The translations under genes and the position numbers were made by a program. Positions 5,664 through 53,441 of a stretch of DNA of 64,000 nucleotides are shown here, piece after piece; position 1 is the first letter of the stretch, and the number at the start of each line of letters is the position of its first letter. The DNA comes from Maribacter aquimaris. GTDB lineage: Bacteria; Bacteroidota; Bacteroidia; Flavobacteriales; Flavobacteriaceae. The notes under the pieces are model-generated. The model ran no database searches. It had not been told where the DNA came from and saw only the letters and a program-made list of their open reading frames with translations. The stretch is taken from contig NZ_JABTCF010000001.1 in NCBI RefSeq assembly GCF_014596745.1, positions 682,001-746,000 on the forward strand, given 5' to 3'.

Positions 5664-5728
5664 GTCAATTTTCCATATAAACAAATCAATAATAATAGAT
5701 AACTACACTAAAGCTATTCCTATTTTTA
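5664..5728 (+). promoter_or_regulatory. Island operator and promoter, FG-GAP gene
   Basis: Direct repeat GTCAATTTT (5664-5672) and ATCAATAAT (5685-5693), start to start 21 bp. After 27 bp comes TATTTTTA (5721-5728), a 7/8 match to the Bacteroidota -7 box; the ATG is at 5763. The first 18 bp match the element at 47229 at 15 positions. Confidence 0.5.
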
Positions 5729-5762
5729 CGTAACCAATTATGTACAGACTATCCTCTTTATT

Positions 5763-7727
5763 ATGAATTCTACCAAAGCGTTACTATTTATTGTTCTATC
5801 CACACTGTTAAGTTGTAAAACAAAAAACGAATCCAATGTCGAATTTTCCCCAAAGTTTGAACGTTTGGCCTATAACAATCCCGGCTTAACGGTCGACCTG
5901 GGGGTGGGACTATGGGCTTCCCCGCTACCTATGGATTATGACAATGACGGGGATTATGACCTATTGGTTTCCTGTAGTGATGTGCCTTTTCATGGAATCT
6001 TCTTTTTCGAAAACACCAGTGGTGATTCCTTTCCGGTCTTCGCCCCGGCCGTCAAGGTTAGCGATGACCCCGTAAAACACATCCAAGTATCTTATGTTAA
6101 TGGGGAACCCCGTTTTTTGAGACCTGGTGAGGAATTGAAAGATTTTAAAAACACTTTTGCCGATACGTCCGAAGTACTCTACCCAGGGGATGCTTTTGAA
6201 AAACTCCATAATAAAATCCGATTCAATCAATGGAAATACGTCGATTATGAGAATGATGGTGATCTGGATATCATTGTTGGAATCCAGGATGGGGAGGATT
6301 ATGGATGGGATAATGCCTTTGATGACCATGGCATTTGGACCAACGGACCGCTTCATGGCTACGTCTATCTGATCGAAAACGTAAACGGTACCTACGCGTT
6401 GAAGGATAAGATTACCGCAGACGGAGAACCTATTGACGTCTACGGTGCCCCTACCCCAAACTTCGACGATTACGACAATGATGGTGATTTGGACATTATT
6501 TGTGGGGAATTTATGGATAAATTCACATGGTTCGAAAACATCGGTACGCGGGAAAAGCCAAAATACGCCAAGGGTAAGTATTTGGAAAACGAGACTGGAA
6601 TTATAGCCATGGACCTCGAAATGATCCTACCCGTTTCTTTGGACTGGGACAAGGATGGCGACATCGACTTGGTTGTCGGGGACGAAGACGGTCGGGTGGC
6701 TTTCGTTGAGAATACCGGAAAAACCAAGAATGGCATGCCGGTGTTTAACGACCCCAAGTACTTTCAGCAAAAAGCGGAACACGTGAAATTCGGAGCGTTG
6801 GTCACTCCTTTTAGCACCGATTGGGACGATGATGGTGATGAAGATCTTATCTGTGGCAATTCTGCAGGATATATTGCATTTATTGAAAACCTCGATGGAA
6901 AGGATACCCCCAAATGGAATGCCCCAAAATTACTGTCCGCCGAAAATGAAACCATAAGGATCCAAGCTGGTGAGAGTGGCTCCATCCAAGGCCCCTGTGA
7001 AGCAAAATGGGGCTATACAACCTTGTCGGTAGAGGATTGGAACAATGATGGCTTAAAGGATATCATCGTAAACTCGATATGGGGAAAAATTGTTTGGTAT
7101 GAAAATATAGGCACAAAGGGGAACCCCAAACTTAGTGCCGAAAAACCCATTCATGTGCAATGGGAAAACGAAACACCCAAACCGGAGTGGTATTGGTGGG
7201 ATCCCGAACCGAACACCTTGGCTACCCAATGGAGAACAACACCCAATGCCACTGATTGGAATAAAGATGGACTAATGGATTTGGTTATGTTAGATCAAGA
7301 AGGGTATTTAAGCTACTATGAGCGATTTAAAGATGGGGCGGAGTTAATTCTAAAACCAGGGCAGCGGATTTTTCATTCAGCAAATGGCACCTTTGATCGA
7401 AAAAACAAGCTTATTGATATATCAAACGGTCCATTAAGGCTCAGCGAGAAAAAATATGGCAGCAGTGGAAGGCGAAAACTTGCTTTTGGCGATTGGGATG
7501 CCGATGGGGATATTGATATTTTGGTCAACGGCATCAATGCGGCCCTATGGGAAAATATCGGACAGGCCGATGGTAAAGTAGAATTCAAATTCAACGGCAA
7601 CTTATCGGATCTGAAGTTAGCCGGCCATACCACGAGTCCCACACTCGTTAACTGGGACAATAAAGGAAATCCCGATTTACTTTTGGGTGCCGAGGACGGC
7701 TATTTCTATTATTGGAAAAATGACTGA
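5763..7727 (+). CDS. FG-GAP/VCBS repeat lipoprotein
   Basis: Exported lipoprotein (MNSTKALLFIVLSTLLSC, Cys18) made almost wholly of FG-GAP-type propeller repeats. At least eight calcium-binding loops of the D-x-D-x-D-G-D-x-D kind are visible: DYDNDGDYD, DYENDGDLD, DYDNDGDLD, DWDKDGDID, DWDDDGDED, DWNNDGLKD, DWNKDGLMD and DWDADGDID, each followed by a hydrophobic strand and often by a VWYENIG-like strand. Such propellers serve in glycan or protein binding and as scaffolds in some lyases; no catalytic domain is evident. It is monocistronic and divergent from the PAT-A gene, with an island-type operator upstream. A surface binding role is plausible but unproven. Confidence 0.85.
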   Translation: MNSTKALLFIVLSTLLSCKTKNESNVEFSPKFERLAYNNPGLTVDLGVGLWASPLPMDYDNDGDYDLLVSCSDVPFHGIFFFENTSGDSFPVFAPAVKVSDDPVKHIQVSYVNGEPRFLRPGEELKDFKNTFADTSEVLYPGDAFEKLHNKIRFNQWKYVDYENDGDLDIIVGIQDGEDYGWDNAFDDHGIWTNGPLHGYVYLIENVNGTYALKDKITADGEPIDVYGAPTPNFDDYDNDGDLDIICGEFMDKFTWFENIGTREKPKYAKGKYLENETGIIAMDLEMILPVSLDWDKDGDIDLVVGDEDGRVAFVENTGKTKNGMPVFNDPKYFQQKAEHVKFGALVTPFSTDWDDDGDEDLICGNSAGYIAFIENLDGKDTPKWNAPKLLSAENETIRIQAGESGSIQGPCEAKWGYTTLSVEDWNNDGLKDIIVNSIWGKIVWYENIGTKGNPKLSAEKPIHVQWENETPKPEWYWWDPEPNTLATQWRTTPNATDWNKDGLMDLVMLDQEGYLSYYERFKDGAELILKPGQRIFHSANGTFDRKNKLIDISNGPLRLSEKKYGSSGRRKLAFGDWDADGDIDILVNGINAALWENIGQADGKVEFKFNGNLSDLKLAGHTTSPTLVNWDNKGNPDLLLGAEDGYFYYWKND

Positions 7728-7827
7728 TTAAAAAATCGAAACCGTTTACGGGAATAGATCCACCATGCCTGATTGAGCGATAGCTTTACACACAATGGAA
7801 AACAATGCACAAGTGGACGTGCCCCCA

Positions 7828-10080
7828 TTATTCTGTTTGTATCAAATTAAGGTAACGCCCCATCCAATAGGGCAAAAGCCAATAAACAGGTTCCTTTTCC
7901 TGGGCCGGGTTGCCAACTACAGCCTCGTAGATATTATTGTCCCAACGCACTGCACGGGATTCACTTGGTGGTCGCAACGCGACCTGTAGTTCCTCTAATA
8001 TGGGTTCCCTGACTACTTTTAAATCCTCGCGTTTACCATTGTCAATATTCCAATCGACCAAATCCAATGGAGCATCCTTAAGAAAAGCAATGGAAGCCTC
8101 AAGTTCATCATTACCACCGGAAAGATAATTATAGGTAAAATTAACAAGGGGACTATTCGTTTTCCTGTTCTTTTCAAACCACTGGTTTAAATGGATTACA
8201 TATTCCTTCTTAATCTGTGGATCATCCTCATACTTTATCAACGGGGGGTAAACATACAAAGCCATATAAATATCGAAATACGTTTCCCATGCAGGATTTG
8301 TAGCATGCAACATTTTAGCGTTTTCAAGGTACCCCTCTTTATTTATCAATTTTAAATATTCGTTCTCATATTTTTTATTTTTGGTAATGTGGTACGTAAA
8401 TTTCAAAAAAGAGAGCAATTCAAGGGAGTTCAAAGCCTTTTCCGAAGCCCATTCTGGATCGTTATTCAGCATTTGAGGTGACCATACCCCCCACTTTGTA
8501 TGCTTACCATCGGCTCCTATCAAGTTAAAATCATTTGCGATCAGATGATCCATTATCTTACTGAAATGGTTTGCTACACGTTCCTTTTCTTGGTTATCCG
8601 CAACCAATGTATAATAGCAGTAATAACCGAAGAGGTGGCCACAAAGCTCATCACTACTCGTATCTCCTTTCCATTTCCACTTTCCATCTTTAGAAATATG
8701 CCAACGCTGTTCCACGGGTTTTTGTCGTGGATTTTTGATTATTTCCTCCGCCAATTCCCGATCCGTATAGGTACGGTCCATATCGTGTGATTCTTCCCAG
8801 GATACCGGTATAATCGTTCGTGCAAAGAATCCATCAATTTCGGTCACTTCGCGCAAATAATGTAGAAAATCAAATGCTTTTTTAGCCCTTTCCTTCGCCT
8901 GTGGATTTTTTGTGGTTGCGTATCGAAATGATTCCATGGCCAAGTACATTGCCGTATATTCCCCATCATTGTCGTCATCTTCCGGGACAATGGATGTTGT
9001 ATCCCCGGGAATCGTAAGTTTGGACCTCCCTACAATCCATGGTTCCCGAACGTGACGTGGTATTAATTTCTTGTAGAAATAATCCGCTTTGGATTGAAGC
9101 GTCATTTGCTTTTTCCTGATAGCACTAACACCATTTGCAGTGGCAATCCATGCATTTCCATCAGTATCAAAAGCAATGTCCCGTACCTCATTATCCATCA
9201 GCCAACGTCTACTCAATCGTATTGAATATTCCTTTTCCCCCGGTGTAAATCTTGTAATGCCATAATTTGTCCCGACCCACATAATACCATTGGGTGCTTT
9301 TTTAACCACATTGATATTGGCATTCGGTAGACCATCCTGGGGCAATTTTTCCCCTACTTTTTCAGTAGCATTCCGGATTGCAATACCCCCCATACTTCCA
9401 ACCCACAATTCACCTTGACCGTCATAATCGATCCCTTTGACATAAGCACTTACCAGGTCATTATTCTTTTGATAGACCTTTGTTTCCCCATCATTACAAT
9501 GATATAGTCCGACATCGGTCCCTACCCACAACCCTCCATTATTATCGGACAGGGCTGCCCTTATGCTTCTGGCGATGTCATAATCCTTTTTGACCCAATT
9601 TTCCTTATTGTAAAACCAATTACCATAGGGTCCCAAGGCGTATACCCCCTCTTTAGCACAAACCACTTTTGCGATGGGCGGATTAAGCCCTTCCATTTTT
9701 TTGATTCCCTTGGATGTATAGGTATAGACACCATTCCATGTTGCCATCCATAGGGTTCCTGTAGCGTCCAATCCCACATCATATGCAGGGCCTTGATCTG
9801 CATCGGTAATCATAAGTTGCCAATCTTGGGAAGTTGCTTTTTTTCGATATATGCCATCCTTGGTGGCGACCCATATATTTGAATCCACATCTAGACTTAT
9901 GGCCCTTATATCATTTGCGTCTGGATTATTCCCTTCGACCCAAAAACCTTCGTGGTATTCCTGTTCAAAAGGTACATCTACATAAAACGATCTGTTCCCT
10001 GCCTTGGTTTCATCGGTTTTATATGGAGTTTCCTTACACGATATAATAGAAAGGATTATAAGTAAAATCGATTTTCTCAT
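7828..10080 (-). CDS. PAT family protein B: propeller plus alpha-rich domain, lipoprotein
   Basis: Second member of the four-paralogue family. The start at 10080 gives a lipoprotein signal (MRKSILLIILSIISC); the ATG at 10131 is too far upstream. The N-terminal propeller has strong repeats (WVATKDGIYR, LWMATWNGVYTY, WVGTDVGLYHC, LWVGSMGGIAI, MWVGTNYGI, AWIATANGVSAI). The segment RRWLMDNEVRDIAFDTDG is shared closely with the copy at 55793. C-terminal motifs: DDDNDGEYTAMYLAMESFRY, GFFARTII, KWKWKGDTSSDELCGHLF, DGKHTKWGVWSP, PLDLVDWNIDNGKREDL and LLPYWMGRY. It is the last gene of the aldolase-symporter operon, 178 bp after the metallophosphatase. It groups with the 55793 copy rather than with the copies at 3212 and 53520. 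Activity unknown. Confidence 0.85.
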   Translation of the reverse strand: MRKSILLIILSIISCKETPYKTDETKAGNRSFYVDVPFEQEYHEGFWVEGNNPDANDIRAISLDVDSNIWVATKDGIYRKKATSQDWQLMITDADQGPAYDVGLDATGTLWMATWNGVYTYTSKGIKKMEGLNPPIAKVVCAKEGVYALGPYGNWFYNKENWVKKDYDIARSIRAALSDNNGGLWVGTDVGLYHCNDGETKVYQKNNDLVSAYVKGIDYDGQGELWVGSMGGIAIRNATEKVGEKLPQDGLPNANINVVKKAPNGIMWVGTNYGITRFTPGEKEYSIRLSRRWLMDNEVRDIAFDTDGNAWIATANGVSAIRKKQMTLQSKADYFYKKLIPRHVREPWIVGRSKLTIPGDTTSIVPEDDDNDGEYTAMYLAMESFRYATTKNPQAKERAKKAFDFLHYLREVTEIDGFFARTIIPVSWEESHDMDRTYTDRELAEEIIKNPRQKPVEQRWHISKDGKWKWKGDTSSDELCGHLFGYYCYYTLVADNQEKERVANHFSKIMDHLIANDFNLIGADGKHTKWGVWSPQMLNNDPEWASEKALNSLELLSFLKFTYHITKNKKYENEYLKLINKEGYLENAKMLHATNPAWETYFDIYMALYVYPPLIKYEDDPQIKKEYVIHLNQWFEKNRKTNSPLVNFTYNYLSGGNDELEASIAFLKDAPLDLVDWNIDNGKREDLKVVREPILEELQVALRPPSESRAVRWDNNIYEAVVGNPAQEKEPVYWLLPYWMGRYLNLIQTE

Positions 10081-10258
10081 GGTTGATGTGGTATTTATGA
10101 CTTTTGGGAACTCTTCTAATCCAACATGCAAGAATTAGGACAAACCGGAAAACCGGATTTATTTTGGGTGTGAAAAAGGTTATTTTTATTATTCCAAAAT
10201 GGGTAGAAAAAATGCAATAGGGGTTTCCGTAAAGGCTTCCCTAATCCGGAATCTAGAA

Positions 10259-15198: not shown

Positions 15199-15263
15199 CA
15201 AAGAAAATCGAAACATGGCTGGATAAGCGCAATTATTTTATGCAAATCATATAGTATCTTAAC
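15199..15263 (-). promoter_or_regulatory. Island operator and promoter, aldolase operon
   Basis: Read on the minus strand: direct repeat GTTAAGATA (15263-15255) and CATAAAATA (15242-15234), 21 bp apart. A TTG follows as a possible -33 element, and TTTCTTTG (15206-15199) sits 27 bp after the repeat. It lies between the aldolase and the divergent AraC gene, where an autoregulated activator site would be expected. Confidence 0.5.
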
Positions 15264-15317
15264 TTAGATATCATTTTTTTTATGTAATATTGAAAATAAG
15301 AGTTAAAATAGTAAGAT

Positions 15318-16166
15318 ATGGAGTTTATTTTTGAGAAAATTTATGTCCCTAACAACCACTCTTTCATTTCTAGGAAATTACCGCTATCATCTGATGCCCG
15401 GATTCATTCCCACAAGAATTTCGAACTTAATTATATTACTTCGGGTACGGGTAGAAGAATTGTTGGCGATAACATTTCGGGATTTGAAAAGGGTGACCTT
15501 GTATTATTGGGTCCTGAGCTACCACATTGTTGGGAATTATTGGATGCTGAAAAAGATGAGGATCCATCCTGCATTGTGACGCATTTTTCAGAAAATATCA
15601 TAGACAATGAGTTCTTTAAAATGCCAGAACTCCAAAATGTAGTGGTATTATTGAAACAAGCCAACCGTGGTATTCGATTCAGAACCGAAAACGACAGCGA
15701 AATCAGTGAAATTTTAACTGAGCTGTCGCAAAGTGTAGGTCTCGAATATTATATAGGTTTACTTAGGATTTTCAACCTATTGATAAAAATCGAGGATAGG
15801 GAAAGACTCTCCAACCCAATGAATCGATCTTCCGTTTTCACCAAAAACATTGAAAAGATCAATAAGGTCTATGAGTATGTCTTCCTAAATATTCAAGAAG
15901 GTATTAATCTTGAAGAAGCTTCATCGGTATTGAATATGGCCCCGAGTTCCTTTTGCAGGTTTTTCAAAAAGAAGACCGGTCTTACGTTTATGGAGTATGT
16001 AAAAAATGTAAGGGTCGGAATGGCTGCCAAACTGTTAGCCGAAACAGATAAGCAAATCACCCAAATTTGCTATGAAAGTGGTTATAATAATTTAGCTAAT
16101 TTCAACCACTACTTTAAAGCGAGTATGGGCAAAACCCCATCGGAATATCGCAAAAACTTCAGGTAA
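15318..16166 (+). CDS. AraC-family transcriptional regulator
   Basis: The only DNA-binding regulator visible in the window. The N-terminal half (about 15-150) is a cupin-like sensor domain (LNYITSGTGRRIVG, DLVLLGPELPHCW). The C-terminal 95 residues are an AraC/XylS double helix-turn-helix: INLEEASSVLNMAPSSFCRF, then ITQICYESGYNNLANFNHYF, ending KTPSEYRKNF. It is divergent from the aldolase operon. Proteins of this class bind tandem direct repeats spaced two helical turns apart next to the promoter, matching the 21-bp repeat found upstream of ten transcription units here. A single GTTAAAATA (15302-15310) just before the start codon could be an autoregulatory half-site. That this protein binds those sites is inference. 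Confidence 0.93.
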   Translation: MEFIFEKIYVPNNHSFISRKLPLSSDARIHSHKNFELNYITSGTGRRIVGDNISGFEKGDLVLLGPELPHCWELLDAEKDEDPSCIVTHFSENIIDNEFFKMPELQNVVVLLKQANRGIRFRTENDSEISEILTELSQSVGLEYYIGLLRIFNLLIKIEDRERLSNPMNRSSVFTKNIEKINKVYEYVFLNIQEGINLEEASSVLNMAPSSFCRFFKKKTGLTFMEYVKNVRVGMAAKLLAETDKQITQICYESGYNNLANFNHYFKASMGKTPSEYRKNFR

Positions 16167-21583: not shown

Positions 21584-21648
21584 CAAATTAACACTAAAAC
21601 CAGCCCTTATACCACTATAATATTACAGGAAATATATTATATATTAAC
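21584..21648 (-). promoter_or_regulatory. Island operator and promoter, PHP-GH31 operon
   Basis: On the minus strand: GTTAATATA (21648-21640) and TGTAATATT (21627-21619), repeat period 21 bp; 27 bp later TTAATTTG (21591-21584). The rest of 21649-21819 is AT-rich with no gene. Confidence 0.45.
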
Positions 21649-28072: not shown

Positions 28073-28137
28073 CAAATTTATATCCAATTACTTCAATATA
28101 ATTCAATTATTTTATTAATTAATGAACATATCTTAAC
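28073..28137 (-). promoter_or_regulatory. Island operator and promoter, PKD-SusCD operon
   Basis: On the minus strand: GTTAAGATA (28137-28129) and AATAAAATA (28116-28108), period 21 bp. A TTG lies at 28106-28104, and a perfect -7 box TAAATTTG is at 28080-28073, 27 bp after the repeat and about 100 bp before the ATG. Confidence 0.55.
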
Positions 28138-29533: not shown

Positions 29534-29536
29534 CAA

Positions 29537-31859: not shown

Positions 31860-31863
31860 AAAA

Positions 31864-32883
31864 ATGAAATACCCAAAACGCTTAACAGCCCTTCTTTATT
31901 TCTTAATTCTATGTATGGGATGCAAGGAAAAAAAGACCCCTGCCACTACTCCCGAAACCACGATGACAAACTCTGAAATCAATAAAAACCCCAGTACCTG
32001 GGCCGAGAAATTGGGTTGGCCAGAGGGCAAAAAAGTCATTTTACTACACGCCGATGATATCGGCATGTGCCCCGAAGCCAATATTGCGGCAAAAAAGCAA
32101 TTGACAACGGGGGTCATTCAATCCGCAGCGGTAATGATACCCTGCCCCAATGCCCAAGAGTTCATATCATGGGCCAAAGAAAATCAAAAATTGGATATCG
32201 GCCTTCACTTAACCCTGACCAGTGAATGGAAAACATATCGATGGGGTACCGTATCGGATAAAGCCGAAGTACCGGGTCTACTTGACGAGGAACACAAAAT
32301 GTGGCATGAAGTGCCCCAAGTGGTACAACATGCCACTGCGACAGAAGTAGAAAAGGAAATAAGGGCCCAAATAGAACAATCCTTGGCCTGGGGTTATCGG
32401 CCCGACCACATCGACACCCATATGGGCACCCTATTTGGACACCCCTCCTATGTGAACGTATATATGAAGGTCGCACAGGAATATGGCATACCTGCCAATA
32501 TAATAGACATATCCAATCCAAAAGTACTGGCAGAGTTCAGAAGTAAAGGTTACCCCATGGATGATAGTGTGGTTGAGATGTCCGAAGCGTATACCCTGCC
32601 CAAACTCGATTATTTCACCAGTGTACCCAAGGCTAAAACCTATGACGAAAAAATTACCAACTTTAAAAAGCTTATCGGTTCTTTGGATTCCGGACTCACT
32701 GAAATAATTTTCCATCCATCGGTGCTGACCGAAAATTTAAAGGGTATTACCAACTCTTGGGAACAGCGCTCATGGGAAGCCCAAATGTTCTCAGACCCGG
32801 AACTTATCCAATTTTTCAAGGAAGAAGGAATCATATTCACCAATTGGAGGGAAATCATGGAGCGTTTTCAAAAACAGAAATAA
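31864..32883 (+). CDS. YdjC/ChbG-family carbohydrate deacetylase lipoprotein
   Basis: Start at 31864 gives a lipoprotein signal (LYFLILCMGC, Cys20) and 339 aa; the longer reading would overlap the preceding gene. Metal-binding motifs of the YdjC family: LHADDIGM (His62, Asp64-65), GLHLT (113-117) and HIDTHMG (182-188). Relatives such as ChbG remove N-acetyl groups from chito-oligosaccharides in the cytosol; this one is exported. Closely packed with two predicted esterases, it suggests an acylated, perhaps N-acetylated, sugar in the substrate. Confidence 0.9.
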   Translation: MKYPKRLTALLYFLILCMGCKEKKTPATTPETTMTNSEINKNPSTWAEKLGWPEGKKVILLHADDIGMCPEANIAAKKQLTTGVIQSAAVMIPCPNAQEFISWAKENQKLDIGLHLTLTSEWKTYRWGTVSDKAEVPGLLDEEHKMWHEVPQVVQHATATEVEKEIRAQIEQSLAWGYRPDHIDTHMGTLFGHPSYVNVYMKVAQEYGIPANIIDISNPKVLAEFRSKGYPMDDSVVEMSEAYTLPKLDYFTSVPKAKTYDEKITNFKKLIGSLDSGLTEIIFHPSVLTENLKGITNSWEQRSWEAQMFSDPELIQFFKEEGIIFTNWREIMERFQKQK

Positions 32884-32936: not shown

Positions 32937-33001
32937 GGCAATATTTAATGTGTTTCGAATAATATTCAAGTAGCCTTGTGTTTAGATTAAGGTGTTATTT
33001 G
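32937..33001 (+). promoter_or_regulatory. Island operator and promoter, sialidase-like operon
   Basis: Direct repeat GGCAATATT (32937-32945) and AATAATATT (32958-32966), period 21 bp; 27 bp later GTTATTTG (32994-33001). The first box is a weaker match than most. It sits in the only sizeable gap of the plus-strand run and would start a second transcript at the sialidase-like gene. Confidence 0.4.
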
Positions 33002-33030
33002 TAATCTATAAAATTTCAAATCCAAAAGGT

Positions 33031-34110
33031 ATGAGACAATTTACTTTTTTCGCCCTGGTATTAATGATTTTCTCTTGTAAGGAAAAGTCTCCCGAATTAC
33101 CCAAGGTCGTTCCCTTAAACCACCCAGCAGTGATCACCGAAGAATTCATATATGAAATAGATAAGGCACCCACACCCGAATGTCATGCCTCAACGGTAGC
33201 AGTAAGTAATGGGGTAGTTGTCGCATCCTGGTTTGGCGGAACCAAGGAAAAAAACAAGGATGTAGGCATCTGGGTCGCTCGTAAAACGAACGAAAAATGG
33301 TCTTCCCCTGTTGAAATCATCAATGGGGTACAGGAAGATGGTACCCGCTACCCGTGTTGGAATCCTGTTTTATTCAAACCTAAGGGAAAGCCGCTCTACT
33401 TGTTTTATAAAGTAGGCCCTAGTCCACAAGAATGGTGGGGACTTTATATGACCTCTAAAGACAATGGCCAAACATGGTCAGAACCGACGGAACTTCCTAA
33501 AGGCATTTTAGGCCCCATAAAAAACCAACCGATCCAACTGGCCGATGGAACCATTTTGTCTCCATCGAGCAATGAGACCACTTCCGGGGATTGGACTGTT
33601 CATTTAGAATATAGTATGGATAGTGCAACATGGACGAATTCGGAACCCTTGAACGATCCGGAAGTATTCGGAGCCATACAACCGGTGATATTGAACTACG
33701 GAAATGGGAAATTACAATTATTGAGCCGTACCAAGAATGGTGTCGTAAGCGAGAATTGGTCCGATGACTTCGGAAAAACCTGGAGTACCATGGAAGCTAC
33801 TTCCTTACCGAACCCAAATTCCGGTATCGATGGAACCAGCCTTCAAGATGGACGACAATTTCTGGTGTATAACCCTACCGATAAAAATTGGGGTGACCGG
33901 GTACCTTTGAGTATCGGACTTTCCAAGGATGGTAAAAACTGGGACCGGGTGCTCGACTTGGAACCCTTACGCGAGAATACGGATAAGGAAGGAGAGGAAT
34001 ATTCCTATCCCACCGCTCTACAAGCTGAGGACGGTAAAATACATGTCGTCTATACGTGGAATAGAAAAACGGTCAAATATGTGGTTATCGACCCCGAAAA
34101 ACTTCAATAG
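33031..34110 (+). CDS. Sialidase-like (BNR repeat) lipoprotein
   Basis: Start at 33031 (MRQFTFFALVLMIFSC, Cys16), 359 aa. Six-bladed propeller of the BNR/Asp-box type: TSKDNGQTWSEP and WSDDFGKTWSTM are Asp boxes, and ECHASTVAVSNGVVVASWFGG followed by KDVGIWVARK is the usual start of this subfamily. The F/Y-R-I-P motif of true GH33 sialidases is missing and the arginine triad cannot be made out. So the name reflects fold, not activity; glycosidases and lyases of other specificities share it. Stop and next start are adjacent (34110/34111). Confidence 0.8.
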   Translation: MRQFTFFALVLMIFSCKEKSPELPKVVPLNHPAVITEEFIYEIDKAPTPECHASTVAVSNGVVVASWFGGTKEKNKDVGIWVARKTNEKWSSPVEIINGVQEDGTRYPCWNPVLFKPKGKPLYLFYKVGPSPQEWWGLYMTSKDNGQTWSEPTELPKGILGPIKNQPIQLADGTILSPSSNETTSGDWTVHLEYSMDSATWTNSEPLNDPEVFGAIQPVILNYGNGKLQLLSRTKNGVVSENWSDDFGKTWSTMEATSLPNPNSGIDGTSLQDGRQFLVYNPTDKNWGDRVPLSIGLSKDGKNWDRVLDLEPLRENTDKEGEEYSYPTALQAEDGKIHVVYTWNRKTVKYVVIDPEKLQ

Positions 34111-35517
34111 ATGAAAACAAAAAGATGGCATCGGCGACTGGTCAGGGTTTTTGCGACCCTCCTTGTCATCTTCCTTTTGCTCTTTATTTTTGCCACAAGG
34201 GCTATTGACAATACGCCGTATTTCGAAACGGACTATTACAAAAACACCATCAGGAACATGGATAGCGAAGTCAAAAGCATGACTGAAGCCAAAGGCTTGC
34301 TCTATTCAGGTTTCTCCAAGGTGAATATTACCCCGAAAATCGTTGAGGGTAACGCCGATGACACCAAAGGGGAATTCAATACCATAAAAATGGCCGGATA
34401 TGGTGACGGGGCATTTGCAAAAGGCGCTCACGACTCTTTATACGCCAAGGCCATTTCCCTTCAGGTCGATAACAAGGAAATCGTACTTATCAGTGCCGAT
34501 ATGGTCTTGATTCCCGAAACGGTCATAATTCAGGTCGCGGAAAATCTAAAAAACAGGATTTCAAGAAAACAACTCTTCTTTGGTGCTACGCACACCCATG
34601 CCAGTATAGGCAATTGCATACCCGGTTTTGTCGGGGAAAGCTTTGGAGGCGAATTCAACCCTAAGGTGGTTCAATGGCTCAGTGATAAATTCACCTCCCT
34701 TATTTTAAAAGCATTGGAGGACAAACAACCCTCAAAATTCGGATCCGGATATGTAGATATACCCCATTTGGTCCGGAATCGGATTATTGGTGAAACCGGC
34801 CGTCTCAATACTAAATTCACCCTGCTATCAATCATTCAAGATAATGGAAAACAAGCCGTCGCAGGTATTTTTTCGGCCCATGCCACCACAATTGGTCCTT
34901 GGAACAATACCTTCAGCGCAGACTACCCGGGTTACTTTCAGCGAGGTCTTGAAGCCAAAGGAATCGATTACGCCCTGTTTTTTGCCGGTACGAATGGTAG
35001 CCAATCAAATAAAGGAAAAGGTAAAAAGTTCGAAAAAGTGAAATATATCGGTGAAACCTTGGCCGACTCCGCACAATCGGTACTTAATGAAATGAAATAT
35101 GATTCGATCTTGAATCTATCGGTCATCTCCCCTGAATTGGAAATACCCCGACTACAGGCATTCTATGTATCAGACAGCCGAAGGTTTTCCCCTGCCGTAA
35201 GCGGATTATTGATGCCCGAGGTGGAATCGGTCTATATACAAGGATTGCGATTGAATAACCTCATATGGATCGCCATGCCCTACGAGCTGAGCGGCGAATA
35301 TGGCATAGACCTGAAGAATGCTTTGGAACTCAAAGGCTATAATTCGGCCATGACCAGTTTCAACGGTCAATATCTTGGTTATATCGTTCCGTCGAAATAT
35401 TATTACTACGACACGTATGAAGCCCGTTTGATGGGGTGGTACGGCCCTAGTATGGGCGATTATTTAATGGAACTGAACTACAGGTTGGCAAATATCCTCA
35501 CACATTCACGATTATAA
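34111..35517 (+). CDS. Neutral/alkaline ceramidase-like hydrolase, copy 2
   Basis: 468 aa with an N-terminal membrane anchor (about 12-30). Family motifs: SGFSKVNITPK, LISADMVLIP, FGATHTHASIGN (zinc site), FSAHATTIGPWN and FFAGTNGSQSNKG, where the last region holds a Ser but not the GDVSPN sequence of known ceramidases. No C-terminal Ig domain. Starts directly after the sialidase-like gene and precedes copy 3 by 10 bp. Of the three copies this one keeps a Ser nearest the expected nucleophile position, so it is the best candidate for serine-dependent amidase activity. Confidence 0.8.
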   Translation: MKTKRWHRRLVRVFATLLVIFLLLFIFATRAIDNTPYFETDYYKNTIRNMDSEVKSMTEAKGLLYSGFSKVNITPKIVEGNADDTKGEFNTIKMAGYGDGAFAKGAHDSLYAKAISLQVDNKEIVLISADMVLIPETVIIQVAENLKNRISRKQLFFGATHTHASIGNCIPGFVGESFGGEFNPKVVQWLSDKFTSLILKALEDKQPSKFGSGYVDIPHLVRNRIIGETGRLNTKFTLLSIIQDNGKQAVAGIFSAHATTIGPWNNTFSADYPGYFQRGLEAKGIDYALFFAGTNGSQSNKGKGKKFEKVKYIGETLADSAQSVLNEMKYDSILNLSVISPELEIPRLQAFYVSDSRRFSPAVSGLLMPEVESVYIQGLRLNNLIWIAMPYELSGEYGIDLKNALELKGYNSAMTSFNGQYLGYIVPSKYYYYDTYEARLMGWYGPSMGDYLMELNYRLANILTHSRL

Positions 35518-35527
35518 TCCCAATAGT

Positions 35528-37084
35528 ATGAAAAAAGTATTAAAAGTATTTGGCCTTCTGATTTTATTGATTGCCTTAATCATTGGCGGTATTTTTATCT
35601 ATAACTGGCGCGATCGACACCCCAATTATAACATTGACCTAAAGACGATAAGCCAAAACCCTAGCCCCATAAAAGCCGGTTTTGCCAAACGCCCCATAAC
35701 CCCGACTATCGTGGATACATGGAATGATGCCAATGGTGATAACAAATACAACGAGGAGGATGGGGATACCTTTAACGACAACAACGATAATGGTACTTTT
35801 GATGCTTTCTGGATAGCCGGGATGAGCAATGCCAAACCTGCCCAAGGTGTTCATGATGATGTGTGGTCCAGGGTCATGGTACTCGACGATGGCAAAAGTC
35901 GTGTAGCGATGGTATCTTTGGATGCCATTGGTTTTTTACATGGTGATGTCATCGATATAAGAAAAAGGATCCCTAAGGAATTAGGTATCGATTACACCCT
36001 AATCGCTTCAACCCATACCCACGAAAGTAACGACCTTGTCGGTATTTGGGGGGAAAACATGTTCAATTCGGGAGTAAATCCTGAAATGATGGAATATGTC
36101 AAGAAACAAACGGTGGCCGCCGTTACCGAAGCGGTAAATAACCTACGGTCGGCTAAACTGGTTTTTGCCGAGGATCTGACGGAAAGGGATTCCGTACTGA
36201 TCAAGGACACCCGGAAACCCATTGTAAAAGCTACAGGAATCCATTTAATGCAAGTTCTTGACGACGAAACGGAAGAGACCTTGGGCACGCTTATCAATTG
36301 GTCTAATCATCCTGAAACGTTGTGGAGTCAAAATCTTTTGATCAGCTCCGATTTTCCACATTATGTTAGGGAAGCCATTGAAAATGGTGTGTATAGTAAA
36401 AAAGAACTAAAAGAGAAGGGCTTAGGGGGGGTCGCCATTTATTTCTCGGGGGTTATTGGTGGCTTAATGGCCCCCCATCCTTCCATTTCCATTGAAGACC
36501 CTTATACTGGAGAATCCTACGCTTTGCCCACGTATGAAAAAACAAAGGCTCTTGGCGACCAATTGGCACTGATGTCCTTGGAAGCTTTACGTAAAAGAGG
36601 CGATACCATGGCTACCTCAAACATATCCGTTCGGGCCAAAACAATCCTAGCTCCCTTGGACAATACCACCTTCAAGATCGCAAGTGGCATTGGATTGATC
36701 CAAATGGGGGTTCCCGAGTATTTCAAAACCCGTACCGAAGTAGGGGCTATTCGAATCGGACCGGCGATGTTCTTAAGTATTCCAGGGGAAATCTATCCTG
36801 AAATTGTTTTTGGTGGCGTAGAAGCACCTGAAGGTCGGGAATTTGACATTCAACCCTTAGAGACCCCTCCTATCCAAGAATTCATCAAAGACAAATACAA
36901 ATTCTATTTAGGACTTTCGAACGATGAAATAGGGTATATTATACCGAAAAGTGAATGGGACACCGAAGAACCCTACCTGTATTTGGATAAGCGCGATACT
37001 TATGGCGAAGAAAATTCCCTTGGCCCTGAGACTGGTCCCCTTATCTACCACTCCCTAATAGAGGTCATTAACGATTTGAAATAA
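35528..37084 (+). CDS. Neutral/alkaline ceramidase-like hydrolase, copy 3
   Basis: 518 aa with an N-terminal membrane anchor (about 7-25). Zinc-site motifs STHTHESNDLVG and NWSNHPETLW are present; the nucleophile region reads YFSGVIGGLMAPHP with no suitable Ser in the usual place. It differs from its neighbours by an acidic Asp/Asn/Gly insertion at about 66-92 (WNDANGDNKYNEEDGD and NDNNDNG) that looks like paired calcium loops. Last gene of the plus-strand run; it converges on the HAD gene with 11 bp between stops. Confidence 0.8.
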   Translation: MKKVLKVFGLLILLIALIIGGIFIYNWRDRHPNYNIDLKTISQNPSPIKAGFAKRPITPTIVDTWNDANGDNKYNEEDGDTFNDNNDNGTFDAFWIAGMSNAKPAQGVHDDVWSRVMVLDDGKSRVAMVSLDAIGFLHGDVIDIRKRIPKELGIDYTLIASTHTHESNDLVGIWGENMFNSGVNPEMMEYVKKQTVAAVTEAVNNLRSAKLVFAEDLTERDSVLIKDTRKPIVKATGIHLMQVLDDETEETLGTLINWSNHPETLWSQNLLISSDFPHYVREAIENGVYSKKELKEKGLGGVAIYFSGVIGGLMAPHPSISIEDPYTGESYALPTYEKTKALGDQLALMSLEALRKRGDTMATSNISVRAKTILAPLDNTTFKIASGIGLIQMGVPEYFKTRTEVGAIRIGPAMFLSIPGEIYPEIVFGGVEAPEGREFDIQPLETPPIQEFIKDKYKFYLGLSNDEIGYIIPKSEWDTEEPYLYLDKRDTYGEENSLGPETGPLIYHSLIEVINDLK

Positions 37085-42303: not shown

Positions 42304-42368
42304 CAAATATATTCAACCGAAACAAAGACGCATTAGTTTATCTTATTTGAAACCTATGTTATTTTAAC
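42304..42368 (-). promoter_or_regulatory. Island operator and promoter, metallophosphatase operon
   Basis: On the minus strand: GTTAAAATA (42368-42360) and AATAAGATA (42347-42339), period 21 bp, then perfect -7 box TATATTTG (42311-42304) after 27 bp. The ATG is at 42216. Confidence 0.55.
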
Positions 42369-42548: not shown

Positions 42549-44126
42549 ATGAAGCTTTTTTGTATTTCCCTTTTGTTTTTCACCTTATTCGTATCCTGCA
42601 AGGAAGAACCTAAAAGTAGTGTAGTTCTGCCTATGGAGCCCAAGGCAACACTTTTGGACGGGGGCCAATTGGCAAAAGCACAATGTGCCGCTTGCCATCA
42701 ATTTGTTTCTCCCCAGATATTATCCAAATCAATATGGAAGGAAGATGTACTACCGGCCATGGGACACCGATTAGGCATATTCAATGGTAACAGGCCACCA
42801 GATAGTATTTTTGGTTCACCCCGGAATGCCATTATAGTCAAAAAAGCGAATATTTATCCGGAAACACCCCTATTGGCAAAGGCCGACTGGCAAAAAATCG
42901 TGGATTATTATATTGAGAACGCCCCTGATTCCCTTTTACCCCAAAAAAGAAACCATACTATTGAAATAGGGCTTAAACACTTCAAGTACAAAGAACCTTC
43001 CTATGCCCATCCTCCTCCTTTAACCGCAATGGTTAAAATAAGGCCCCATAAAAAAGGACTTGTTTTTAGTGATGGCAAGCGCAACAACAATGTACTCACC
43101 TTTCTTGGTCCTGATCTGAAGTTTAGGAAGAATCTGTTTTTTAAAAATACCCCCGTCCATTTCCATGAAGATTCGGATACCATCTATTTAACCACAATCG
43201 GCAAGAATATTTTTCCACATGACACTCCGGACGGGGCCATGCAGAAAATCGTTGATTCTAAAAAAGGTCAAGACCTAATAATCGCAAAGCCTATTATCGA
43301 AGGACTTCAACGGCCTGTTTTTATGGCTTATGGCGATTTGAACAATGATGGAAAAGAAGATATCGTAGCCTGTGAATATGGGGACCTAACGGGAAAATTG
43401 GTGTGGTATGAAAACCAGGGGGACTCCAAGTACATCCCAAAAACACTAATGAATAAGCCAGGGGCTATAACCGCGATTATCAATGATTACAATGCAGATG
43501 GCCTAAACGATATTTTTGTACTGATGGCCCAAGGGGACGAAGGTATTTTTTATTTTGAGAATAAGGGTGATGGCTCCTTCTTTGGGAAAAGACTATTTAC
43601 CTTTTCCCCCCTCAATGGCAGTCAATATATTGAACTTGCCGATTTCAACAATGATGGCCATAGCGACATTTTATACGTCTGCGGGGATAATGCGGACAAA
43701 ACCCCGATTCTTAAAGATTATCATGGTATTTACATCTTCTTGAATGACGGAAACCTGAATTTCACACAAGGGTATTTTTACCAACAAAATGGAGCCTACA
43801 AAGCCATGGCAAGGGATTTTGACCTTGATGGGGACTTGGATATTGCCGCAATTTCATTTTTCCCGGATTACTTGAAGAATCCCAAAGAAAGCTTTGTATA
43901 TCTTGAAAACATCGGTAATCTGACCTTCAAGGATTTCTCCTTTCCTGAATCGACAAATGGACGGTGGATTACTATGGATGCCGGGGATATTGATGATGAT
44001 GGGGATATTGACATCGCCTTAGGTTCCTTTGTTTACTTTATGGCGAAAGGTGATACTACGGGACTGAGCAAAAAATGGCTTAAAGAAAGTCCCTCCGTCA
44101 TTCTGCTCGAAAACACACTTAAGTAA
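42549..44126 (+). CDS. Cytochrome c domain fused to FG-GAP propeller, lipoprotein
   Basis: 525-aa lipoprotein (LFFTLFVSCKEE, Cys17). A c-type heme site CAACH is at 46-50, and Met71 in LPAMGHRLG is a candidate axial ligand. The rest is an FG-GAP/VCBS propeller with calcium loops DLNNDGKED, DYNADGLND, DFNNDGHSD, DFDLDGDLD and DIDDDGDID, each followed by repeat strands such as LVWYENQGD. Cytochrome-propeller fusions occur in periplasmic dehydrogenases, but no quinoprotein motif is clear here. It may pass electrons from an extracytoplasmic oxidation, for example by the Tat-exported oxidoreductase nearby. Monocistronic. Confidence 0.82.
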   Translation: MKLFCISLLFFTLFVSCKEEPKSSVVLPMEPKATLLDGGQLAKAQCAACHQFVSPQILSKSIWKEDVLPAMGHRLGIFNGNRPPDSIFGSPRNAIIVKKANIYPETPLLAKADWQKIVDYYIENAPDSLLPQKRNHTIEIGLKHFKYKEPSYAHPPPLTAMVKIRPHKKGLVFSDGKRNNNVLTFLGPDLKFRKNLFFKNTPVHFHEDSDTIYLTTIGKNIFPHDTPDGAMQKIVDSKKGQDLIIAKPIIEGLQRPVFMAYGDLNNDGKEDIVACEYGDLTGKLVWYENQGDSKYIPKTLMNKPGAITAIINDYNADGLNDIFVLMAQGDEGIFYFENKGDGSFFGKRLFTFSPLNGSQYIELADFNNDGHSDILYVCGDNADKTPILKDYHGIYIFLNDGNLNFTQGYFYQQNGAYKAMARDFDLDGDLDIAAISFFPDYLKNPKESFVYLENIGNLTFKDFSFPESTNGRWITMDAGDIDDDGDIDIALGSFVYFMAKGDTTGLSKKWLKESPSVILLENTLK

Positions 44127-47003: not shown

Positions 47004-47055
47004 AATACTCTGTTTTTATATATGCGTTTGTCTATTTTGATCTTGGGGATTTCAA

Positions 47056-47120
47056 CAAAGTAAACCATAATAAAAACGTGATGCTTCAACTATTTTGCTC
47101 TTTATACGTGCCCGTTTGAC
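47056..47120 (-). promoter_or_regulatory. Island operator and promoter, Tat oxidoreductase operon
   Basis: On the minus strand: GTCAAACGG (47120-47112, weak) and AGCAAAATA (47099-47091, identical to box 2 of the neighbouring plus-strand site), period 21 bp. A TTG follows, then TTACTTTG (47063-47056) after 27 bp. Confidence 0.35.
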
Positions 47121-47228: not shown

Positions 47229-47294
47229 GTTAATATTCCATGTAAAAACAGCAAAATAGAAGAAACATATGTTTCCCGGTATAGACTATATTTA
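47229..47294 (+). promoter_or_regulatory. Island operator and promoter, esterase gene
   Basis: GTTAATATT (47229-47237) and AGCAAAATA (47250-47258), period 21 bp; 28 bp later TATATTTA (47287-47294). The 18 bp from 47229 are identical to those at 53377, GTTAATATTCCATGTAAA. Confidence 0.55.
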
Positions 47295-47386: not shown

Positions 47387-48537
47387 ATGGGAAAGTTATT
47401 TATTTATCTGTTTTTTACGACTGTGTTCCTAAATGCACAAAATGATATGTTGTGCCAAGGAGACTATTGGACGGAAGATGAAGCCAATTTGAAGATGAAG
47501 GAATTTGCCTCGCAATGGAATGACCGTCAATCTTGGGAAAAACGGGCCGATATGATTCGCACAGGGATTATTACAGGTCTGAAATTGGATAAAATGCCAC
47601 AAATCAAAGGTAATTTCAATCCGATTATCCGGGACAAGAAAGTAATGGATGGTTATTCCGTTGAAAATATTGCCATCGAAAGCTTTCCCGGATTTTATAT
47701 CACCGGCAACCTATACCGACCCAATGACCCCGACAAAAAAATGCAGCCATTCTTTCCCCCCATGGTCATTTATCGGACAAGCGCTTAAAGGAGGATGTAC
47801 AAACCCGGTGTGCCGTACTGGCCCGTATGGGTGCTATTGTATTTGCTTACGATATGGTCGGTTATGCCGAATCGACACAGGTAACGCACAAAATGCCGAT
47901 TGCCTTATTGTTACAAACCTGGAACAGCAAACGGGTACTCGAATACCTCCTCTCCCGATCCGACGTAGACCCTGAACGGATCGGAATGACCGGGGGCTCT
48001 GGAGGGGGCACACAAACCTTTGTGCTGGCCGCCATCGACAACCGTATAAAAGTCGCTGCACCAACCGTTCAGGTTTCTGCCCATTTCTTTGGAGGTTGTG
48101 TCTGTGAAAGTGGTATGCCCATCCATAAAAGTGCCCACCATCAGACCAATAATGTCGAAATTGCCGCACTTTGCGCGCCAAGACCCCTTTTGCTTATTTC
48201 AAACGGATCGGATTGGACAAGGAATACACCGCGGATCGAATACCCCTATATTCAGAAAGTATATGCCTTGTACAATGCAGAGCATAAGGTTGAGAATGTG
48301 CATTTGCCTATGGAAAAACATGATTACGGACCCTCGAAACGTGCAGCGGCTTATATGTTCTTTGCCTACCGTCTCCAATTGGACAAGGGTAAAGTCACCA
48401 TTACAACCGGGGTTCAAGAGGATTTTGTTACGATTTTACCCCAAGATGACCTAAAAGTGTTTACGAAAACCCATCCAAGGCCTGAAAATGCCATAATGGG
48501 AGATCAGGCCATCATGGATTATTTGGGAATCCATTAA
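47387..48537 (+). pseudogene. Acetylxylan-esterase-like alpha/beta hydrolase, frameshifted
   Basis: One gene split in two frames. The 5' part (47387-47788) has a signal peptide and runs to [18 protein letters not shown]6 tract at 47756-47761 then shifts it out of frame to an early stop. The 3' part continues in the next frame as [19 protein letters not shown], with [16 protein letters not shown], the nucleophile motif [24 protein letters not shown] (Asp) and PMEKHDYG (His). Adding one C to the run restores a protein of about 384 aa. Either the gene is broken, the run is slippage-prone and phase-variable, or the base was missed in sequencing. The operator upstream is intact. Confidence 0.88.
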
Positions 48538-50712: not shown

Positions 50713-50781
50713 TTAAATCTATTTTTCTCAAAAGAACCATTATCCCCTGCCCAAAACAGTTGTTTTAAAATGGCTTCTTTA

Positions 50782-50847
50782 CAAATATAAGGCTTAAGAC
50801 ATTCCTGCTATTTCCGCTATCTTATCCCATTTACATGTTATTTTAAC
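50782..50847 (-). promoter_or_regulatory. Island operator and promoter, dehydrogenase operon
   Basis: On the minus strand: GTTAAAATA (50847-50839) and GATAAGATA (50826-50818), period 21 bp, then perfect -7 box TATATTTG (50789-50782) after 28 bp. The first 18 bp match the element at 47229 at 15 positions. Confidence 0.55.
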
Positions 50848-50849
50848 TA

Positions 50850-50877
50850 TTGGATTATTTTCACTAAATTATCTTTG
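50850..50877 (+). promoter_or_regulatory. Promoter of the GH92 gene
   Basis: TTG at 50850-50852, 17 bp, then TATCTTTG at 50870-50877, a perfect match to the Bacteroidota -7 consensus. The ATG is 70 bp downstream. The divergent operator lies directly upstream, so one bound activator could affect both sides. Confidence 0.5.
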
Positions 50878-50935
50878 TTAAGCAGGTAATATTCTTTAGG
50901 TGACTAAAAAATAACCTCAACAAAACTTTAAAACC

Positions 50936-50940
50936 GGAGG
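50936..50940 (+). promoter_or_regulatory. Strong Shine-Dalgarno, GH92
   Basis: GGAGG six bases before the ATG at 50947. Such a complete Shine-Dalgarno is rare in this phylum and fixes the start. Confidence 0.6.
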
Positions 50941-50946
50941 ATTCCC

Positions 50947-53319
50947 ATGAAAAATTTACTGAACCTGATATATCCACTTACGTTTTCACTGTTCTTTGCA
51001 TGTACCCAGATCGGTTATACGCAGGCCAAGACGCCCAGTGCGTATGTCGACCCCTTTATTGGTACCGACTTTTTTGGACACACCTATCCCGGTGCAGCAT
51101 TGCCCAATGCACTTGTGCATTTAAGTCCGGATGTATATACCGAGGGATGGACCTATTGTGCAGGTTATATCTATGCTGAAAGTTCAATCATGGGTTTTAG
51201 CCACACCCACTGGAGTGGTGTTGGCATGGTCAATGGTGGCGAGATATTACTGATGCCAACGGTGAACCAAAAACTACAGATCGTACCGGGTTCCTTGGAG
51301 AATCCGGATGCAGGGTATCGCTCACGATTCGACCACTCCGAAGAGCGTGCCACACCGGGCTATTACACGGTAAAACTTAAGGATTATGATATTAACGTTG
51401 AGCTAACGGCAACCCAACGGGCTGGTTTTCATCGTTATACATTCCCAGAATCAAAGAATTCACGCATTATTTTGGATGTCGGCCATCAAATCGGGGATAT
51501 GACCCAGGGCGAACTTTCAGAACTCAAGATTGTCGATGACCACCGTATTGAAGGTGCGAAAGGTGCAGGGTTAGGGAAAGTATATTTTGTTGCTGAGTTC
51601 AGCAAGCCCTTTTTATATTATGGCACTTTTGACGCCACTTATAAGACCCCTGAATCCAATGGCAGTATTTTCCCATACAAAAATGCCGAAGTAGGTGATA
51701 AAATAGGGGCATTTGTACAATACCACACTGTAAAAGACGAACAGGTATTGGTAAAAGTAGGCCTTTCCTACACCAGTATTGAAGGTGCTCGAAGAAACCT
51801 CCAACAGGAAATACCTGACTGGGATTTTGACGGTGTAAGGGAAAACGCAAAAAAAATATGGAACAAAGAGCTTTCAAAGATCACCGTTAAAGGAGGCTCA
51901 GAAGGCCAAAAACAGATTTTCACCACCGCACTCTACCGATCTCTGTTGGCACAATATATCTCGCAGGATGTCGATGGCAAATATTTTGGTTCGGATGGAA
52001 AAATACACGAAGCCAAGGACTTCGATTTTTATGGGTCTTTTTCATGTTGGGACACTTACCGAACCCAGCACCCCTTACTTACCCTTGTGGCTCCTGAACA
52101 CGTAAATGACTATATCAAATCGATCGCGGCAAAGGTCGAAAATTATGGATGGTTACCCGCCCAACACTTTTTAAACGTCTATGGGGAGTCAATGGTCGGC
52201 GATCACCTGATCCCGATTATTGTGGATGCCTATTTTAAAGGATATCGCGATTTCGATGTTAACCTATTATACAAAGCGATGAGAAAAAAAGCTTTGGAAC
52301 TGCCCAAGTCCCCCATTTCGCAAGATATGGGACGCTCGGGGTTGACTTATTATCTTGAAAAAGGATATGCCCCCATCGATAAGGTGACTGAAGCTGTACC
52401 CAATACCCTTGAATTAGCCTATGACGATTGGTGTATTGCCCAATTGGCCAAAGCGCTTAACAAACCAAAGGACTATACGCTATTCATGAAACGGGCCAAC
52501 AATTACAAGAATGTATGGGACTCCGAAACCCAATTCATGCGACCCAAAAAATATGATGGGACATGGCTCCCTGAAATCGGTGACAACAAGCAGGAAATCA
52601 TCAAGAATGGTGACCACAGTTATTACAAATACTTTGACCCCTTATTGGTTGGTCGACGCCCCAACCGCCACTATACCGAATCGAATGCCTGGCAATATAT
52701 ATGGTCGGTACAACATGACCCTCAAGGACTCATATCCCTTTTCGGGAACAAAAAAGCGTTTATCGCCAAACTCGATACCTTTTTTGAGATGAGTCCGGTT
52801 ATCAGTCCACCAAAGTATGTAGGTGTGGTCGGCACCATAGGGCAATATGTCCATGGCAACCAACCTTCACATCATGTTGCCTATTTATACAATTATGCCG
52901 GCCAACCCTGGAAAACACAGTTCAGGGCCCGGCAAGTAATGGAGGAAATGTACCGAATAGGTCCTGGTGGCCTCCCGGGAAATGAGGATATGGGTTCACT
53001 TTCATCCTGGTATGTATTAAGTGCCATGGGTATTTACCCAATGGCCCCAGGAAATGGAATGTATACGATAGGCAGTCCACTTTTTGATGAATTGAGTCTA
53101 CACTCCGCAGAAAACAAGACTTTTACGGTACGCACCCTAAACAATTCCAAGGATAACGTATACATCCAATCAGCTACCTTCAACGGTAAACCTTTCAACA
53201 GAACATGGATTACCCATGAGGAAATTATCAAAGGAGGTGTACTTCAGTTTAAGATGGGACCACGGCCAAATACGAAATGGGGTACGGACAAAATACCTAC
53301 ATCCGTATTACCTAACTAG
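50947..53319 (+). CDS. GH92-family alpha-mannosidase
   Basis: 790 aa, calcium-dependent inverting exo-alpha-mannosidase family. Leader with a possible lipobox (FSLFFACTQ). The N-terminal domain has SAYVDPFIGTDFFGHTYPGA and SIMGFSHTHWSGVG. The catalytic domain has FYGSFSCWDTYRTQHPLL, IPIIVDAYFKGYRDFD and the signature GNEDMGSLSSWYVLSAMGIY, with the catalytic Glu in GNED. Members cut alpha-1,2, -1,3, -1,4 or -1,6 mannosides, often from N-glycans or mannans. The family call is firm; the linkage is not predictable. Leads a plus-strand unit with two PAT genes, though the next gene has its own operator. Confidence 0.96.
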   Translation: MKNLLNLIYPLTFSLFFACTQIGYTQAKTPSAYVDPFIGTDFFGHTYPGAALPNALVHLSPDVYTEGWTYCAGYIYAESSIMGFSHTHWSGVGMVNGGEILLMPTVNQKLQIVPGSLENPDAGYRSRFDHSEERATPGYYTVKLKDYDINVELTATQRAGFHRYTFPESKNSRIILDVGHQIGDMTQGELSELKIVDDHRIEGAKGAGLGKVYFVAEFSKPFLYYGTFDATYKTPESNGSIFPYKNAEVGDKIGAFVQYHTVKDEQVLVKVGLSYTSIEGARRNLQQEIPDWDFDGVRENAKKIWNKELSKITVKGGSEGQKQIFTTALYRSLLAQYISQDVDGKYFGSDGKIHEAKDFDFYGSFSCWDTYRTQHPLLTLVAPEHVNDYIKSIAAKVENYGWLPAQHFLNVYGESMVGDHLIPIIVDAYFKGYRDFDVNLLYKAMRKKALELPKSPISQDMGRSGLTYYLEKGYAPIDKVTEAVPNTLELAYDDWCIAQLAKALNKPKDYTLFMKRANNYKNVWDSETQFMRPKKYDGTWLPEIGDNKQEIIKNGDHSYYKYFDPLLVGRRPNRHYTESNAWQYIWSVQHDPQGLISLFGNKKAFIAKLDTFFEMSPVISPPKYVGVVGTIGQYVHGNQPSHHVAYLYNYAGQPWKTQFRARQVMEEMYRIGPGGLPGNEDMGSLSSWYVLSAMGIYPMAPGNGMYTIGSPLFDELSLHSAENKTFTVRTLNNSKDNVYIQSATFNGKPFNRTWITHEEIIKGGVLQFKMGPRPNTKWGTDKIPTSVLPN

Positions 53320-53376
53320 AAAACTTCAATTATTCTAACACTATATAGGTATATATTACCATCATTATTTTAAAAG

Positions 53377-53441
53377 GTTAATATTCCATGTAAACCTTGT
53401 AAAATATAGGTGGTAATGTACTTATAAAATAGGTTTATTTG
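53377..53441 (+). promoter_or_regulatory. Island operator and promoter, PAT-C/PAT-D genes
   Basis: GTTAATATT (53377-53385) and TGTAAAATA (53398-53406), period 21 bp; 27 bp later TTTATTTG (53434-53441). The ATG is at 53520. The 18 bp from 53377 repeat exactly at 47229. Confidence 0.55.

Follow-up and report, generated by a model that had tools for sequence, protein, structure and literature searches.

At least 13 promoters within 67.0 kb of the Maribacter aquimaris genome carry a two-part site of fixed geometry, and they very probably form the local regulon of a stand-alone AraC-family activator with a cupin domain, encoded at 15318-16166. In the mechanism we propose, an AraC dimer would bind a direct repeat of two half-sites at a 21-bp distance and would stand on one helix face beside RNA polymerase. 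Its cupin domain would sense a breakdown product, whereupon the at least 13 promoters of this 67-kb glycan-uptake and -degradation region would be activated, and araC would limit its own synthesis through a third half-site. The window analysed is a stretch of 64,000 nucleotides (C1:682001-746000 of a 4.86-Mb genome), and coordinates refer to it unless a contig is named.

Layout and register of the sites

A first-pass annotation of the window had listed ten sites, each with a GTTAA-like box 1, a second box 21 bp downstream and an octamer at a fixed distance. Read on their strands and aligned, all ten box-1 positions are correct. Box 1 opens G-T/G-T/C-A-A in each of the ten, and the G at +0 and the A at +3, +4, +24, +25 and +27 are invariant (10/10). 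The 18 identical bases claimed for the sites at 47229 and 53377 can be seen in the alignment, and the claimed two-turn direct repeat is borne out by the self-similarity of the site profile, which peaks at a shift of 21 (189.7, with a runner-up of 149.8 at 22). Half-sites in direct repeat two helix turns apart are a mark of AraC/XylS sites. A 36-column matrix trained on the ten sites, which served for the window scan and for leave-one-out, recovered all of them together with an eleventh at 5502(-) (score 27.0; best non-site in the window, 18.3). The earlier tally was thus accurate in what it named and incomplete in extent: it missed 5502(-), and sites continue beyond the window. Two further candidates were dropped as unsupported, 11690(-) (score 18.3), which lies between two genes of one operon, and C1:754146(+) (score 20.0), which has no -7 box at +61.

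On the forward strand, the site at 5664..5728 precedes a gene for an FG-GAP protein (5763-7727; -7 box TATTTTTA), and that at 32937..33001 precedes a BNR_2 (sialidase-fold) gene and two ceramidase-N-like genes (32992-37084). The site at 47229..47294, which has the top core score of the matrix, stands before esterase-like ORFs (47387-48537), and 53377..53441 stands before 53448-55751 and the gene of a Reg_prop protein (55691-57934). On the reverse strand, 5438..5502, the eleventh site, lies before the gene of a 751-aa protein (5467-3212) and a GDPD gene, and 15199..15263 is the proposed driver of genes for a DHDPS-family aldolase, an SSF symporter, a MocA protein and a phosphatase (15232-10259). 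Further along this strand, 21584..21648 precedes PHP/CehA-like, GH31 and two unknown genes (21419-16198), 28073..28137 the genes of a PKD-domain protein, SusC and SusD (27971-21875; -7 box at +61), 42304..42368 metallophosphoesterase, DHDPS2 and HAD genes (42306-37096), 47056..47120 those of a MocA-family oxidoreductase and a DUF6807 protein (47003-44263), and 50782..50847 those of a 2-hydroxyacid dehydrogenase and a metallophosphoesterase (50712-48715). Outside the window, a site at C1:754460(+) (window-equivalent 72460) precedes a second SSF symporter gene, and a weaker one at C1:754108(-) (window-equivalent 72108) a second SusC/SusD pair.

Gene starts in the ORF list are too far upstream for several targets; for 53448-55751, a later ATG at 53520 fits a lipoprotein signal. 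The esterase-like gene after the strongest site is read as two ORFs in different frames (47387-47788 and 47827-48537), with a Pfam esterase domain only in the second, perhaps owing to a frameshift or because it is a pseudogene. Three divergent genes, 28196-32883 (ceramidase-N-like), 42549-44126 (FG-GAP) and 50947-53319 (GH92), share an intergenic region with a site, and the window scan found no site in their own direction at a matrix score of 9 or more.

The repeat lies directly upstream of a -7 box. The Bacteroidota sigma-ABfr element TAnnTTTG (TAHHTTTG) has a counterpart at 13 of 13 sites in this genome, with the leading TA and the final G not invariably kept. Counted from the first base of box 1, TTT[G/A] falls at +61 in 11 of these sites and at +62 in two; within the window the proportions are 9/11 and 2/11, the +62 sites being 47229 and 50847. 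TTTA replaces TTTG at 5502, 5664 and 47229. Both the fixed distance of the octamer and the promoter adjacency of the first-pass annotation are therefore upheld. The same register recurs in the 80 orthologue loci described below. A matrix that ended at +35 picked out 117 distinct but related cores there, and TTTG begins exactly at +61 in 95 of these. In the numbering given for the Flavobacterium johnsoniae -7 box, its G is at -5 (PMC6847099). Placed in this way relative to the predicted start, box 1 would extend from about -69 to -53 and box 2 from about -48 to -33, so that the promoter-proximal half-site would abut the polymerase site, as at AraC/XylS sites.

The proposed regulator and a half-site before its own gene

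The proposed reader of all sites is a 282-aa AraC-family protein (15318..16166, +) that joins an N-terminal cupin-like domain, the sensing fold of sugar-type members of the AraC/XylS family, to the two helix-turn-helix motifs of the family's C-terminal domain (about 100 aa). Pfam HTH_18 covers residues 204-279 (E 1.1e-23), and Cupin_2 and AraC_binding match only below their cut-offs. The AlphaFold model (mean pLDDT 84.4, pTM 0.59) has beta strands over residues 6-90 and seven helices over 172-279, and its PDB matches are ToxT, RhaR and AraC (Foldseek: RhaR 5u93, TMt 0.66-0.70; AraC 2arc, TMt 0.58-0.59, 13-16% identity). The protein is 99% identical to an AraC of Maribacter polysiphoniae. Residues H30, H32, E36 and H70 form an H-x-H-xxx-E...H set, unchanged in all 33 of the AraC proteins compared from this subgroup and the second one described below. 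Such cupin-type sets typically bind metal, and the invariance hints at a metal-dependent sensor.

The leader of araC contains a single GTTAAAATA half-site, box 3 (15302..15310, +); box 1 of the divergent site lies 39 bp away. A sense GTTAA-like element stands 14-34 bp before the araC ATG in 76 of 80 orthologues, compared with 9/80 on the antisense strand and 96/770 for other ORFs, the pattern having been chosen after inspection of araC upstream sequences. Box 1 and box 3 are inverted and 38-40 bp apart in 69 of 73 cases, including L060 and L062, where the start codon lies about 17 bp further off, whereas boxes 1 and 2 form a direct repeat of 21 bp. Upstream of box 3, TAATATTG (15285..15292, +) can be read as a candidate -7 box of araC, a weak match to TAnnTTTG, and would place box 3 at about +6 of the araC start. 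As box 3 lies just downstream of this predicted start, AraC probably limits its own synthesis, which suggests that box 3 is a putative autorepression site. A tentative extension, which we think unlikely, is a three-box switch used across Bacteroidota: an uninduced dimer on boxes 1 and 3 would silence araC, an induced dimer on boxes 1 and 2 would activate, and a sugar acid chelated to a metal may be what the cupin senses. Such a mechanism would amount to the AraC switch of E. coli at short range.

Box 3 also bears on the sign of regulation, for AraC might bind its sites as a repressor, or act both ways, with the inducer releasing it. Its predicted place near +6 of the araC transcript is indeed that of a repression site. 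At the 13 targets, however, no part of the repeat reaches the -7 box, which lies downstream of it; the repeat covers the -33 region alone, and this layout resembles araI1-araI2 of E. coli, where binding to araI2 recruits polymerase (PMC4760080). We regard repression in either form as unlikely, and activation of the targets remains our preferred reading.

Pairing of site and regulator across genomes

We scanned 80 loci around AraC orthologues, the best 80 of 103 (59-99% identity; Flavobacteriia to Bacteroidales), with a matrix of the 11 window sites, which was also used for the second subgroup. These loci gave 132 hits at 18 bits or more, compared with one in order-1 Markov copies and one with the reversed matrix. 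A site adjoins araC in 76 of the 80, at 53-73 bp in 75 and at 162 bp in L038, with scores from 17 to 35. L067 and L068 have only weak versions of the site beside araC, and L055 and L059 have no full site there (2/80 loci). A DHDPS gene was found in 77 of the 80 loci; in L018 the divergent neighbour is a phosphatase gene instead, yet the site remains with araC.

The scan of related genomes that the first-pass annotation had proposed gave a concordant picture. An orthologue is present in 14 of 199 family genomes, our own included, and in all 14 a match to R2, a 71-column model trained on the 13 own sites (25 first-look candidates scored per genome), lies 53-161 bp from araC. At E up to 1e-4, a cut-off chosen after the list was seen, R2 matches occur in 12 of 14 genomes with the orthologue and 3 of 185 without it (Fisher p 7e-15); minus our own (training) genome, the proportion is 11/13 (p 8e-14). 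R2 E-values are rough, because at a loose E (up to 0.1) 105 of the 185 orthologue-negative genomes also show some match. Neither the 80 loci nor the 14 genomes are independent, and part of the co-occurrence comes from common descent of a single locus. A phylum-wide draw of 296 genomes contained the orthologue in our own genome only, and the spread across the phylum thus rests on the best 80 of 103 loci. Taken as a comparison of genomes, the role of the 15318 protein as putative reader of the sites is well supported.

The best-scoring exceptions have a regulator of their own. All nine orthologue-negative genomes with an R2 match at E up to 6.2e-4, the best-scoring genomes of that kind, encode a related AraC of 31-37% identity, whose gene is 89-117 bp from the matched site. 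Sites of this second subgroup have box 1 in common with the 15318 group and a different box 2. Likewise, the HTH1 helix FCR[FY]FKK is common to both groups of proteins and HTH2 differs, from which we infer that the common HTH1 pairs with the common box 1 and the differing HTH2 with the differing box 2. From 38 matrix hits, four of them from L114, 26 subgroup-2 sites were picked by eye and 12 dropped, some overlapping; TTTG is at +61 in 18 of the 26, at +60 in six and absent in two. Divergent site pairs stand exactly 29 bp apart in eight of eight measured, two of which represent a local duplication in L114, and L116, L120 and L123 show no divergent pair in the 29-bp register. Our own genome has a subgroup-2 paralogue at C27:210819, with sites of that kind (L114, C27:209577-210819). 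The neighbours in L121, also of subgroup 2, include fatty-acid desaturase, acyltransferase, HD and radical-SAM genes, possibly a membrane-lipid regulon.

Another protein might nevertheless read the sites of the window, be it a remote paralogue of AraC, an AraC-type regulator of the hybrid two-component kind or a factor not linked to the locus, with araC 15318 merely a member of the regulon. At E up to 0.001 the AraC query finds 20 further matches in this genome, box 1 is very similar at the sites of related AraC proteins, and 16 hybrid two-component regulators are among those for which 21-bp direct repeats are known in Bacteroides (PMC3878776). Against such a reader, it is the presence of a 15318 orthologue that predicts strong sites, and the nine exceptions inspected have their own AraC beside the site. 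Within the genome 15318 is the sole close match, its next paralogues being 34-36% identical, and among the 43 window ORFs scanned there is no other DNA-binding domain. Moreover, box 3 precedes araC even in L055 and L059, whose short contigs show no DHDPS gene. As kinase-type or other regulators in the window we considered the Reg_prop proteins 7828-10131 and 55691-57934 and rejected them, as neither has a DNA-binding domain in Pfam to E 0.5. A reader other than the 15318 protein is, in our judgement, very unlikely.

Genome-wide, the best matches are confined to one locus, as seen in the scan with a position model that the first-pass annotation had called for. R1, a sequence-only model of the ten sites, was used to score 150 of 6623 first-look candidates, of which at least 21 match at E up to 10. 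The top twelve, with E no higher than 0.16, fall within C1:687-754 kb without exception, and the next match has an E of 0.83. These twelve include 5502(-) (E 0.011) and C1:754460(+), both from outside the training set. The other 13 genomes with the orthologue have 57 matches at E up to 1e-3, of which 46 are within 100 kb of araC on its contig; the main exceptions are G181 (2/7) and G113 (3/7). The seven matches of G181 are spread over five contigs, one of them the araC contig, so the regulon is not always one locus.

The annotation had also asked whether the pattern is equally dense in AT-rich DNA, and here the answer differs between sites. Measured against intergenic window DNA simulated with an order-2 Markov model, seven of the ten sites, when held out, reach scores for which 0.009 or fewer positions are expected. 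For the remaining three, 5664, 28137 and 47120, the 36-bp core by itself gives weak scores (0.5 to 1.5 positions expected), and 10, 4 and 4 non-training window positions, respectively, score higher. All three keep the -7 box in register; 28137 is conserved upstream of 12 of 12 PKD orthologues and 5664 upstream of 11 of 18 FG-GAP orthologues, and 47120 is kept in its one testable orthologue. With 68% AT between the genes of the window, and three of the ten sites weak by leave-one-out, one might suspect an AT-rich element common to promoters in general or an accident of composition. The chance of either is negligible, given that the best genome matches are confined to one locus and that 0.006 positions are expected at 20 bits in simulated intergenic DNA.

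Target genes and known regulatory systems

Across the orthologue loci, sites stand before operon-first genes, upstream of 70 of 77 DHDPS orthologues and 9 of 11 orthologues of the 751-aa protein, and are rare before inner operon genes (SSF 1/37, SusC 0/19, SusD 0/25, GH31 0/20). Several targets in the window mostly have no site in relatives (PHP 2/29 within 450 bp, BNR_2 1/28, metallophosphoesterase MPE407 of the 42368 site 0/11), and at the 53377 target the site is kept in one of four, L018. Since the DHDPS-family aldolase gene is the most constant target, the inducer would most likely be a substrate or product near that step. The best match of this aldolase-family protein is a protein called dihydrodipicolinate synthase (4xky), followed by the KDG-aldolase YagE, and it reaches no NCBIfam cut-off.

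The gene set of the window comprises phosphoesterases, GDPD, ceramidase-N-like, BNR_2, GH31, GH92 and YdjC proteins and two DHDPS-family proteins; the BNR_2 protein matches sialidases only at 8.5e-8. The glycan locus extends past the window, where positions 444-19213 of L105 (C1:744444-763213) hold a second SusCD pair and FGE-sulfatase-like, SSF, GH2, DegT aminotransferase and GDPD genes, as well as another purple acid phosphatase gene. From the phosphatase, GDPD and SusCD genes, our guess is that the substrate of the region is a phosphorylated glycoconjugate. Four large proteins, 3212-5467, 53448-55751, 7828-10131 and 55691-57934, all match one stretch of L075, and likewise of L038, and so look like paralogues; the last two have Reg_prop repeats without a regulator domain.

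The 21-bp layout is not new, because it has been described both for the HTCSs of Bacteroides and for the AraC-type RhaR. In Bacteroides thetaiotaomicron, comparative genomics assigned to HTCSs direct repeats that lie upstream of polysaccharide-utilization operons and are 21 bp apart on average (PMC3878776), and an HTCS unites a membrane-sensor histidine kinase with response-regulator parts in a single protein (PMC11253607). The layout and the kind of inference are the same here; the regulator differs, being a 282-aa protein with its own motif that consists of cupin and AraC domains only, whereas an HTCS has sensor-kinase and response-regulator parts fused to its AraC domain. Bacteroides RhaR, like 15318 an AraC-family regulator of Bacteroidota, acts through 21-bp direct repeats in positive control of rhamnose genes, and rhamnose regulons are mostly local, with one to several operons (PMC3870299). 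Here, by comparison, the sites span a large mixed locus with at least 13 promoters, and the regulator gene has a third half-site of its own.

E. coli AraC has the same cupin and two-HTH build and a divergent regulator gene; the likeness is at the level of fold only, and the -7 promoter is different here. Its proximal operator pair araI1-araI2 lies beside the promoter, and further operators (araO) are used in the uninduced state (PMC4760080). Closer in habitat is CgrA (ZGAL_3159) of Zobellia galactanivorans, the AraC regulator of the carrageenan regulon, which is needed for normal growth on a glycan (PMC5698469). Both are marine flavobacterial AraC regulators with a multi-gene glycan regulon, and the gene clusters differ. 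A literature search by title and abstract, with subscription papers mostly outside it, found no paper on the 15318 regulator or its motif. Within that search we have not met a confined regulon of this size, a register that holds to the base in two AraC groups, or the third half-site.

For a large glycan locus of a marine flavobacterium, the analysis gives a regulator, a base-precise putative binding syntax and at least 13 promoters. It ties phosphatases, GDPD, ceramidase-like, sialidase-fold and aldolase-family proteins and two SusCD pairs into what would be one co-regulated pathway. The third half-site makes the proposed autoregulatory switch directly testable, and the rigid register from site to -7 box in two AraC subgroups could help to find which sites belong to other AraC proteins in the phylum.
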